Source of the DNA: Thermoanaerobacteraceae bacterium
Lineage (GTDB): Bacteria > Bacillota > Thermoanaerobacteria > Thermoanaerobacterales > UBA4877
Assembly: GCA_030016635.1 (NCBI GenBank)
Contig: JASEJQ010000002.1
Location: forward strand, 1-64,000
DNA length: 64,000 nucleotides
Reading direction: 5' to 3'
Under the pieces are notes generated by a model, which had not been told where the DNA came from, did no database searches, and saw only the letters and a list, made by a program, of their open reading frames with translations. Positions 2,297-44,485 of the stretch are shown one piece after another. The position numbers and the translations under genes are program-made. Positions within the stretch are counted from its first letter, which is position 1. The number at the start of each line of letters is the position of its first letter.

Positions 2297-2823
2297 CTTC
2301 CCTGCCACCTCCGGTATGGCTGATGTTTTGTCCTAAGAACGGTTTATATGTCCATCCCTTCCCTCCGCCGTCATTACCGGCTTCTTTGGTACTATGAGCG
2401 AATCCGACTCCTTGTATATCGTTTCTTCCACCTTAGATGAAATGCTCTTTGTGTGGAAAATACTCTTTCAAGAATATGCAAGGCCTCCCAGGTACATTGT
2501 GAATAACAATCTCATGCTCGCCATGCTCTCAGACCCCGGTGAAACCCGTTTGTTCTCGCCTCTATCAACCAAACGTTATTGCCTGCTGCCCAGGTGAAGG
2601 CATCGGCTTCCACTTTGTATAATATAATGGGGCTCTATCACTTCACGCTTTCGCATTACGGCTTGTATGGTTTCCTGCCTACGCTTAAACCTCACCTCAC
2701 GGTTTCGGCTCCAAGGCTGGATAACGGCGGCTGGCTTGGCCTTACCGTGCCGGCTTCCCACCAGCTATATTCACAACGCCGAACTGGCGCACCACCCCTG
2801 GAATTATTATATCATAAAAAAAA

Positions 2824-41445: not shown

Positions 41446-42542
41446 AACAGAGCCCTCCTTTCTTCGACAAAGCTGCCTTCAGCATATGCCAGGATTTCAT
41501 CCTTAGTAAGCCCATCCAGCCCCAATCTTCTGGCATTTCTTCCATTATCCCAGTAATCTATCCCGTGCATGCAGGAAGCCAGCTGTATCACTGACTTTAT
41601 AGTAGGTGTATCTACACCTACCTCCTCACCCAGCGAGGCAATGGGTACCAGGCTGTTTGGTACATCCTCGAATATATACCTTGTGTTTAAGGTGGTCGGT
41701 GCTTTTATACCTTTATATCCCTTTGCATTCTGAATGGCCTCATACAGGTTTTTACCCTTTGCTCCGTATGTCTCTTCCATCCATTTCTTCGCTGACGGCA
41801 CCTTTATGCCAAACGCCCTGGCCACACGCAGCCTCTCCATGTCTATCCTCTCCAAGACAGTCGCTACTGAAGGGGATATACCCTCAAGATAATATTCAAA
41901 ACCATCATCATCGGTCTCTATCCTTCCTGCATTAAGCAGGGTTGGAGTCGGATGAAATACCGCGCCTATATTGTTAAGACTCGTCTCCAGCACGTTTTTC
42001 GCAGCCACAAACTGCGGATATGCCTTATTGATCATTTTCACTGTAGACCAGACCATAAACGATGGAATAGTTGCAAAAAATACTACGTTTTTCACACTGT
42101 TTATCTTTACAACACCCGGCTCTTTCTCCCTGCAGGCATATATGAGCGTCTCTGCCTCTCCTATCACGACATCTCTTGTTATGTCAAGCTGTCTGAATAT
42201 ATTGTTAAACTCCAGTGCTCCTCCGGTCCTGCCCGGGTTTAAGACAATCACCTGTCCGTCCTCCAGATAGGGGGCTATGGCAAAGGCAATGTCCCTGTGG
42301 CCTGAAGCAGGCACCGTAACCATTATGATGTCTGCTCCACTTACCGCCTCTTTTATACTGGTGGTAAGGTTCGGTGTGCCAAAACCCTCTACCTCTCCTT
42401 CTAAGGTTATACCGCCTTTTTGCCTTATCTTCTCTATCTTTTCCGGTGACCTGTTATATAGGATCACATCGAAACCCATGATAGAGAGATGGGCAGCCAT
42501 GGCCTGGCCGCCGTTTCCAGCACCAATTACCGCAAACTTCAT
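41442..42542 (-). CDS. NAD/NADP octopine/nopaline (opine) dehydrogenase family protein
   Basis: A 366-residue protein with an N-terminal Rossmann site VIGAGNGGQAMAAHLSIMGFDVILYNR, a central VVLNPGRTGGAL-like segment, and the opine-dehydrogenase C-terminal domain (GAVFHPTPTLLNAGRIE with the probable catalytic His, TRYIFEDVPNSLVPIASLG). The family reductively couples a 2-oxo acid with an amino acid, or the reverse. It is translated from AAAGGGGAG just below a c-di-AMP riboswitch and is coupled to the B12 protein. The substrate is unknown. Confidence 0.85.
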   Translation of the reverse strand: MKFAVIGAGNGGQAMAAHLSIMGFDVILYNRSPEKIEKIRQKGGITLEGEVEGFGTPNLTTSIKEAVSGADIIMVTVPASGHRDIAFAIAPYLEDGQVIVLNPGRTGGALEFNNIFRQLDITRDVVIGEAETLIYACREKEPGVVKINSVKNVVFFATIPSFMVWSTVKMINKAYPQFVAAKNVLETSLNNIGAVFHPTPTLLNAGRIETDDDGFEYYLEGISPSVATVLERIDMERLRVARAFGIKVPSAKKWMEETYGAKGKNLYEAIQNAKGYKGIKAPTTLNTRYIFEDVPNSLVPIASLGEEVGVDTPTIKSVIQLASCMHGIDYWDNGRNARRLGLDGLTKDEILAYAEGSFVEERRALL

Positions 42543-42561
42543 AAAACAACTCCCCTTTCTA

Positions 42562-42664
42562 CGCTTACGAGGTTAGCTGACGGGTTAGGGCTGAAAGAGA
42601 TGGCCCCTCCTTACGGATTCACCCCTGACAATTGGTTCCCCCGCTCCTTTTAAAGGATTCAGCG
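42562..42664 (-). promoter_or_regulatory. c-di-AMP (ydaO/yuaA) riboswitch, gene-proximal copy
   Basis: On the minus strand the element opens CGCTGAATCC, contains GGAGCGGGGGAACCAA, GGGGTGAATCC and TTTCAGCCC, and closes with CCGTCAGCTAACCTCGT then AAGCG. These are the conserved segments of the ydaO aptamer in the right order. No terminator follows; the ribosome binding site of the opine-dehydrogenase gene begins about five bases after the closing stem, so control may be at translation. Confidence 0.93.
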
Positions 42665-42772
42665 TTATAATATTATATTATTTAATTTATATTTTGGGCA
42701 ATGTTATATTATTACATTTGACTAAAAAAATAACTTAATCTGATAAATTTACATATTCTGGATAAAACCTGG

Positions 42773-42804
42773 TAAAATAAAAGCTATGGAGAAACCATAG
42801 CTTT
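42773..42804 (-). terminator. Terminator of the distal c-di-AMP riboswitch
   Basis: Minus-strand hairpin AAAGCTATGG/CCATAGCTTT followed by TATTTTA, 24 bases after the distal aptamer. It is the likely expression platform of that riboswitch. Confidence 0.8.
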
Positions 42805-42827
42805 AAATAGCCACTCTCCTCTTTCAA

Positions 42828-42927
42828 TGCTTACGAGGTTAGCTGACGGGTTAGGGCTGAAAGAGTTGCCCTTCCTTGCGGATTCACCCCTGATACATGG
42901 TTCCCCCGTTCCTTAATGGATTCAGCA
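42828..42927 (-). promoter_or_regulatory. c-di-AMP (ydaO/yuaA) riboswitch, promoter-proximal copy
   Basis: A second aptamer, nearly identical in its conserved segments to the copy 165 bases downstream (TGCTGAATCC, ACGGGGGAACCA, GGGGTGAATCC, TTTCAGCCC, CCGTCAGCTAACCTCGT, AAGCA). It is followed by a remnant GAGGAGAG ribosome-binding-like site and an intrinsic terminator. Family knowledge: c-di-AMP binding turns expression off. Confidence 0.93.
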
Positions 42928-42951
42928 ACAACATATTGAATTATTGTTTAT

Positions 42952-42980
42952 ATTTTAATATAATGGTTTTGATTTGTCAA
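42952..42980 (-). promoter_or_regulatory. Sigma-A-type promoter of the tandem riboswitch leader
   Basis: TTGACA (42980-42975) and TAAAAT (42957-42952) are 17 bases apart on the minus strand, 25 bases before the distal aptamer. Confidence 0.75.
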
Positions 42981-43066
42981 TAACATTATAACTATATTTG
43001 TTAAATTATGGAATAAATATAGCCCAATCCATATGAAGTTACTTTAATTACCGAGGAGGAAAATAA

Positions 43067-44485
43067 ATGGATTTTGAAGATTACTCTAAACTACTCAAGG
43101 ATGCAAAAAAAGACCGTGAAAAAATAAAAAATATCTTTGAGAGAATATCTGATGAAGCAATCTCAAATAATTACAAACTGACTGCAGATATATCTGTCAT
43201 GGGGATGCTTTCCTTTTTTAAATCTGTACGGTACAAAAGATTTATAAAGGTCTATCCATCGGAGTTTACCTCATCGCTGGTAGATGCACTTCACTTTATT
43301 AAGGAAAATTTGCACAGCTGCAGTGAGATTCCTGAGGATGAGGTAAAAACCTTCACCCCTACAATGGAAAGCCTGTCAAAAATGCTGGATGCGGTCAGTC
43401 ATGCCAGTGATGACCTCAGAGACCTCCTTTCCCTATACGAGCAGGAGATGATAATAAGAAATTCCACTGAGCTCCGTCCTCTTTATCCTTCTGATCATGA
43501 GTTTGTCGAGGATATAGTTGATTATCTTTATAATATCATCGAGCAAAATAAAGATAATGCTGAGGTTAATAAAAAAATAAAAAGCCTTATAATGCTCCTG
43601 CCCATGGGCTTTGTCAAGAACGAATTCCTTGCATACACTGAAAGCACCCTTAGAGAGGCAATGGCAGATATGTCATCCTCCAGCATAAAACAGATATATA
43701 AAAACCTATCTGACCTTATTTATCATACATCCAACACCTACTATATGGAGCTTTCTGAAAATGCTTCAAGGTTTGGATTGGATAAAAAACCTGGAAGCCT
43801 CACAGACCATGAAATTCAGAGAGGAATCCGCAGGATAGATTTCTTCATGAATTTGATGAATTTCTTAAACATGATTTTAACCTCCAGCCTTATGCTCTGT
43901 AATCTCATAACGGACAGCGAGACTAAAAACTACGTAGATATCAATAAATATTTATATGCCACTGAAATGATTGATTCATATTTTAATGGCCATACTATTA
44001 AGTTAAACTCTGAAGACATTGCTGACCCCGGCATGGTAACACGGCAGATGAATATTCTATCCCTTTTAACAGACAAAAACAGTACATTCATTGAGGCCGG
44101 TGTTGAACAGTCTGTCCTGATCAAGACCATATACAGGGGTATGGGCTTTACCATATACGACATCAGAAAGGATAACCTGTTTTCAGAGCTATTCAATCTT
44201 TTTGAATACAATATGGACGATGAGCCTTCAGAAGAAGAATTAACGGATAAGGTTATAAAGGATATACTCGCAATGGTGGAGGATGAATTAAACCATTTTC
44301 CTGCCTTCTTCCGCAGGGAGAAGATGAAGTATATCATGAACCTGCTGCCTGTGGGTTTTAACGACATTGACCAGGTACATGAATATATACATATGAGCAT
44401 AGACTCCATTCGAAACGAAAGACTTCTAAACTATATTGAGGCACTGATAGCTTCAATGATGAGCGAAAAAGAGGAACAGGGTTAA
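43067..44485 (+). CDS. Hypothetical protein with an internal duplication
   Basis: A 472-residue, largely helical, charged protein that I do not recognise. There is no signal peptide or membrane segment. Two stretches resemble one another: KIKSLIMLLPMGFVKNEF (about residue 175) and KMKYIMNLLPVGFNDIDQ (about residue 420), each followed by a similar helix, which points to a duplicated module. AGGAGG precedes the ATG. It is divergent from the c-di-AMP-controlled operon and ends by overlapping the tail of the capA-like gene by four bases. Confidence 0.8.
   Translation: MDFEDYSKLLKDAKKDREKIKNIFERISDEAISNNYKLTADISVMGMLSFFKSVRYKRFIKVYPSEFTSSLVDALHFIKENLHSCSEIPEDEVKTFTPTMESLSKMLDAVSHASDDLRDLLSLYEQEMIIRNSTELRPLYPSDHEFVEDIVDYLYNIIEQNKDNAEVNKKIKSLIMLLPMGFVKNEFLAYTESTLREAMADMSSSSIKQIYKNLSDLIYHTSNTYYMELSENASRFGLDKKPGSLTDHEIQRGIRRIDFFMNLMNFLNMILTSSLMLCNLITDSETKNYVDINKYLYATEMIDSYFNGHTIKLNSEDIADPGMVTRQMNILSLLTDKNSTFIEAGVEQSVLIKTIYRGMGFTIYDIRKDNLFSELFNLFEYNMDDEPSEEELTDKVIKDILAMVEDELNHFPAFFRREKMKYIMNLLPVGFNDIDQVHEYIHMSIDSIRNERLLNYIEALIASMMSEKEEQG

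Follow-up and report, generated by a model that had tools for sequence, protein, structure and literature searches.

Tandem c-di-AMP aptamers with different predicted expression platforms precede an opine-dehydrogenase/B12 operon in two genera of one family

The window analyzed here, a 64,000-nt stretch of a contig from a Thermoanaerobacteraceae bacterium, contains on its minus strand an operon whose first gene encodes a protein of the octopine/nopaline dehydrogenase family. The second gene overlaps the first (41445 versus 41442) and encodes a MutE-like protein that contains a B12-binding domain and matches PF06368 (methylaspartate mutase E) weakly, below the cut-off; this gene was located 3' of the dehydrogenase gene in 29 of the 30 loci of relatives. 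A dehydrogenase/B12 operon has been reported in thermophilic anaerobes, with its role unknown (PMC2626281), and an octopine dehydrogenase was up-regulated in Thermoanaerobacter under ethanol stress (PMC3751872). Divergent from the operon, at 43067–44485 on the plus strand, lies a gene whose 472-aa product has no match in Pfam or NCBIfam, and group II intron RNA matches occur near the start of the window (2524–2757 and 1165–1275, both on the minus strand). The features of the leader and the operon are as follows.

42980–42952, minus strand: leader promoter 5' of copy 1, TTGACA-17 nt-TAAAAT (11 of 12 consensus matches)
42937–42814, minus strand: copy 1, c-di-AMP (ydaO) aptamer (RF00379, 103.7 bits, E-value 1.4e-23)
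42865–42859, minus strand: loop strand of the copy 1 pseudoknot, CUCUUUC, complementary to the tail GAAAGAG
42825–42814, minus strand: copy 1 tail, GAAAGAGGAGAG, strand of the pseudoknot and of the predicted antiterminator, common to single-aptamer relatives
42804–42780, minus strand: intrinsic terminator AAAGCTATGG-TTTCT-CCATAGCTTT, followed by TATTTT (hairpin of 10 bp, loop of 5)
42701–42672, minus strand: TTGCCC-18-TATAAT (10 of 12 consensus matches), suggested as an internal promoter but probably inactive
42674–42548, minus strand: copy 2, c-di-AMP (ydaO) aptamer (RF00379, 100.2 bits, E-value 1.3e-22)
42599–42593, minus strand: loop strand of the copy 2 pseudoknot, CUCUUUC, candidate anti-Shine-Dalgarno strand, pairing with the tail GAAAGGG
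42559–42550, minus strand: copy 2 tail, GAAAGGGGAG, apparent Shine-Dalgarno sequence, 7 nt 5' of the ATG at 42542
42542–41442, minus strand: octopine/nopaline dehydrogenase family gene, first of the operon (PF02317, helical domain, E-value 1.5e-51)
41445–39799, minus strand: gene for the B12-binding, MutE-like protein, second of the operon (PF02310, E-value 4.3e-12)

When the window was searched with cmscan, RF00379 (c-di-AMP, ydaO/yuaA) matched at exactly two sites, each on the minus strand and each over the full length of the model (positions 1–134). Because both scores are far above the gathering score of the family (38 bits), chance matches are excluded. The initial annotation, made from the sequence letters, had described two full ydaO aptamers 165 bases apart and had suggested a covariance search with the ydaO model as a check; both copies passed that search (103.7 and 100.2 bits), and the spacing was corrected to 139 nt by the Rfam bounds, a difference that reflects the choice of boundary. 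Two complete aptamers of the same class are therefore arranged in series, and one conserved promoter precedes both, predicting a single transcript. The boxes and spacing of this promoter were identical in the sister genus (G001), where the flanking sequence had diverged. The TTGCCC/TATAAT pair between the copies, which had been suggested to give copy 2 a promoter of its own, does exist and matches the consensus at 10 of 12 positions, so that a second, short mRNA carrying copy 2 alone, and acting by itself, might be imagined. We regard two transcripts as very unlikely, because such sites are no commoner in the stretch searched than in shuffled sequences (6 versus 4.2 ± 2.1 expected), the -35 box has no counterpart in the leader alignment with the sister genus, though the promoter of copy 1 is kept there exactly, and transcription would start inside or at the edge of the P1 stem of copy 2. 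The internal promoter is thus unsupported, and a single transcript carrying both aptamers is considered below.

The hairpin at 42804–42780 is the sole terminator-like site on the minus strand within positions 41800–43500, which agrees with the earlier placement of an intrinsic terminator after the first aptamer, and the same hairpin occurs at the matching place in the sister genus. No terminator-like hairpin was found after copy 2 within the same interval, so the pair lacks the terminator after each aptamer that defines a pseudo-cooperative arrangement. The tail of copy 1 is predicted to pair with the arm and loop of the terminator as an antiterminator, and the predicted energies of the two structures are nearly equal (antiterminator, −12.3 kcal/mol; terminator, −13.1 kcal/mol). 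In several relatives, AGAGGAGG likewise pairs with the loop and arm of the terminator as a predicted antiterminator. The initial annotation had read GAGGAGAG after copy 1 as the remnant of a ribosome-binding site; this reading was rejected, because nearly all of the aptamers examined carry such a purine tail, including single ones located approximately 100 nt from the gene start, and because the tail has two pairing roles. In single-aptamer members of the same order, the tail 3' of P1 is GAAAGAGGAGGA or near it, and in most of the 48 distinct aptamers compared the tail forms a duplex of −10 kcal/mol or better with a generic 16S rRNA 3' end, whether or not a gene follows. On these predicted pairings, GAGGAGAG is a switching strand, shared between the pseudoknot and the putative antiterminator, and copy 1 would fit the established OFF scheme of ydaO riboswitches. 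This also bears on the idea of a single cooperative unit, in which the pair of aptamers would take up four c-di-AMP molecules and act on a shared platform. Cooperativity is raised for c-di-AMP doublets without an internal terminator in PMC9481103; here, the conserved terminator and antiterminator between the copies indicate that copy 1 has a platform of its own, and the remainder of the spacer shows no conservation, which makes a cooperative unit extremely unlikely.

The loop and the 3' tail that form the pseudoknot are complementary in both copies, as they are in the printed sequence of the solved ydaO aptamer (loop, CUCCUUCG; complementary tail, CGAAGGAG; PMC5393176). Across the 48 aptamers, loop and tail covary, with a cognate pairing score of 17.3 compared with 15.7 ± 0.37 for shuffled partners (reached in 0 of 2000 shuffles). 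Kinship among sequences can inflate this test; thinning the set to 21 rows differing in loop as well as in tail, which reduces the inflation, left a cognate score of 15.5 compared with 13.6 ± 0.5 (0 of 5000 shuffles).

The predicted expression platforms of the two copies differ, as had been proposed: a terminator lies 3' of copy 1 only, and copy 2 runs into a Shine-Dalgarno sequence. The related proposal that the second aptamer leads straight into the ribosome-binding site also held, as GAAAGGGGAG ends copy 2 and is followed 7 nt later by the ATG. Between copy 1 and copy 2, the loop CUCUUUC is unchanged and the tail is altered from GAAAGAG to GAAAGGG, so that the pairing in copy 2 consists of six standard pairs and one G-U pair. 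The duplex of the tail with the 16S rRNA 3' end was predicted at −14.9 kcal/mol for copy 2 versus −13.2 kcal/mol for copy 1, and at −15.8 and −9.9 kcal/mol, respectively, in the sister genus, where the copy 2 tail is conserved; the anti-Shine-Dalgarno sequence in these calculations is the generic Bacillota 16S rRNA 3' end, which was assumed, the 3' end of the 16S rRNA gene having been found in neither assembly (own genome or sister genus). From these sequences, copy 2 appears to have co-opted the 3' tail of the aptamer as its Shine-Dalgarno sequence. The predicted energy of the pseudoknot is −5.8 kcal/mol in copy 2, −6.7 kcal/mol in copy 1, and −11.5 kcal/mol in the solved aptamer; the ViennaRNA ensemble cannot represent the pseudoknot. 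The change of the tail to GAAAGGG costs the pseudoknot a little and may suit ribosome binding, and because the copy 2 pseudoknot is the weakest of the three, occlusion of the Shine-Dalgarno sequence may be partial.

Among the 30 loci examined, RF00379 was detected upstream of the dehydrogenase gene in 26 and was doubled in only two, those of this genome and of the sister genus. The same tandem pair precedes the same gene in the only other genome of the family examined, which belongs to a different genus and whose dehydrogenase is 87% identical. When the leaders of the two genera were aligned, the conserved blocks were the promoter, the first aptamer together with the terminator, and the second together with the ribosome site; the remainder of the spacer between the copies diverges. 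Identity between the genera was 86.2% for the copy 1 pair and 92.7% for the copy 2 pair, and copy 1 and copy 2 were 83.9 and 87.8% identical within the two genomes. In a phylogenetic tree of the aptamers, in which many inner branches are weak, the four tandem copies clustered together (89/88), as did the two copy 1 sequences (95/90). A single local duplication before the split of the two genera would explain both the tree and the identities, and the grouping of the four copies upholds the origin by duplication that had been suspected at the outset. The suggested order of events, with a terminator taking the place of an old gene start, is reversed, since members of the order that carry the dehydrogenase gene have a single aptamer followed by a hairpin terminator resembling that of copy 1, with the ribosome site lying apart, approximately 100 nt downstream. 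Judging from these leaders, an aptamer with a terminator and a distant ribosome-binding site is most likely the ancestral state, and the tight linkage between copy 2 and the start codon is most likely derived.

An ancestral state with one aptamer and a terminator would also agree with a simpler arrangement, in which only copy 1 regulates and copy 2 binds the ligand weakly or not at all, its tail being a constitutive ribosome site; the G-U pair in the pseudoknot of copy 2, which that of copy 1 lacks, points the same way. However, the aptamer of copy 2 is still full length and scores 100 bits, and between the genera it is better conserved than that of copy 1 (92.7% versus 86.2%), whereas a dead copy should decay faster. 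Regulation by copy 1 alone is therefore unlikely, and we favor two functional switches.

The genome has three matches to RF00379 in total. The third lies before an NlpC/P60 peptidase gene (L034, 5708–5840, minus strand), with its tail just before the ATG; a counterpart with the same layout occurs in the sister genus (L035, 5277–5412, minus strand), and the NlpC/P60 riboswitch is located approximately 30 nt downstream of a tRNA gene. This riboswitch was rejected as the source of copy 2, because it shares only 60–61% identity with the tandem copies in the same genome and falls outside their group. In the leaders of one genus of the order (L055, L056, L047, L058, L059, and L061–L064), the tail of the single aptamer is GAGGAGG and is followed 7 nt later by an ATG; the short frame of 10–11 codons that begins there, M(D/N)(I/R)FG...FY*, is conserved with an in-frame length change. 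It may encode a leader peptide or may simply result from the hairpin at that place. Among the matches listed, another tandem c-di-AMP pair occurs in a different family (L114, 1117–1259 and 1308–1458, plus strand), with the aptamers 48 nt apart, and is a candidate for a pair without an internal terminator. The same matches include two divergent c-di-AMP riboswitches approximately 420 nt apart in one genome (L116, 1727–1891, minus strand, and 2311–2500, plus strand).

Taken together, the sequence features make it likely that the leader is a bi-mechanism riboswitch of the tandem type, in which two c-di-AMP-responsive OFF switches, derived from one local duplication, act one after the other on a single transcript. 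The OFF direction of both copies is taken by analogy from known ydaO riboswitches. At high c-di-AMP, copy 1 would fold, with the ligand stabilizing P1 and the pseudoknot; the pseudoknot would take the tail otherwise used for the antiterminator, and transcription would stop at 42804–42780. Transcripts that escape would carry copy 2, whose tail would serve as the Shine-Dalgarno sequence, and the ligand-stabilized P1 and pseudoknot of copy 2 would pair with or occlude this sequence and block translation of the dehydrogenase. At low c-di-AMP, both switches would be open and the operon expressed. In evolutionary terms, an ancestral aptamer-terminator leader would have been duplicated locally, after which copy 2 would have used its Shine-Dalgarno-like purine tail as a ribosome site.

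By calculation, a series of two OFF switches would narrow the 10–90% response range from 81-fold to 40-fold at a Hill coefficient of 1, provided that each copy acts independently of the other. With two aptamers of the same class on one leader, the locus offers a natural setting for comparing transcriptional with translational output. Because the pseudoknot strand is already similar to a ribosome site, the locus further points to a simple way in which c-di-AMP riboswitches may become translational. Furthermore, it ties c-di-AMP, a signal for potassium and osmotic stress, to the dehydrogenase/B12 operon; from this link, an osmolyte role for the operon might be guessed. More broadly, and tentatively, it is possible that the Shine-Dalgarno-like purine tail readies most ydaO aptamers for translational switching, and that in this lineage the step has been caught, with the pseudoknot strand of a duplicated aptamer having become a Shine-Dalgarno sequence and produced a c-di-AMP bi-mechanism switch on an opine-dehydrogenase/B12-mutase operon, possibly for an osmolyte.

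Tandem c-di-AMP riboswitches are known. The survey PMC9481103 reports 77 doublets, most with a terminator between the aptamers, and files them as pseudo-cooperative, with the platforms not comprehensively evaluated. Like the present pair, they consist of two RF00379 aptamers placed one after the other upstream of a single gene, with an intrinsic terminator in between; a terminator followed by a ribosome-site platform is not described for them in the passages of the survey consulted. The main text of a later survey (PMC12452182) does not mention c-di-AMP, ydaO, or cyclic di-AMP, and no description of a c-di-AMP pair with a terminator followed by a ribosome site was found in the literature searched, most subscription papers lying outside it. 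Copy 1 resembles the single ydaO riboswitches with a terminator of Bacillus subtilis ydaO/kimA and Bacillus thuringiensis kdpFABC (PMC6488665), which have neither a second aptamer nor a tail used as a ribosome site. Copy 2 resembles the nlpC riboswitch of Corynebacterium glutamicum, a c-di-AMP aptamer without a terminator that exerts translational OFF control and in which a CUCC stretch is proposed to form a pseudoknot with the GGAG of the ribosome-binding site (PMC9960051); in contrast to the present case, that riboswitch is a single aptamer before another gene in an actinobacterium, and its regulation was measured. The combination proposed here, in which one ligand controls the end of transcription and then ribosome access, has parallels in the SAM-II/SAM-V bi-mechanism tandem and the SAM-II/SAM-II tandems with mixed platforms, as given in PMC9481103; those tandems involve another ligand and aptamer class, whereas both aptamers here are of the c-di-AMP class. 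The tandem arrangement in this leader is real and conserved, and it belongs to a known kind of arrangement rather than to a new kind of system.
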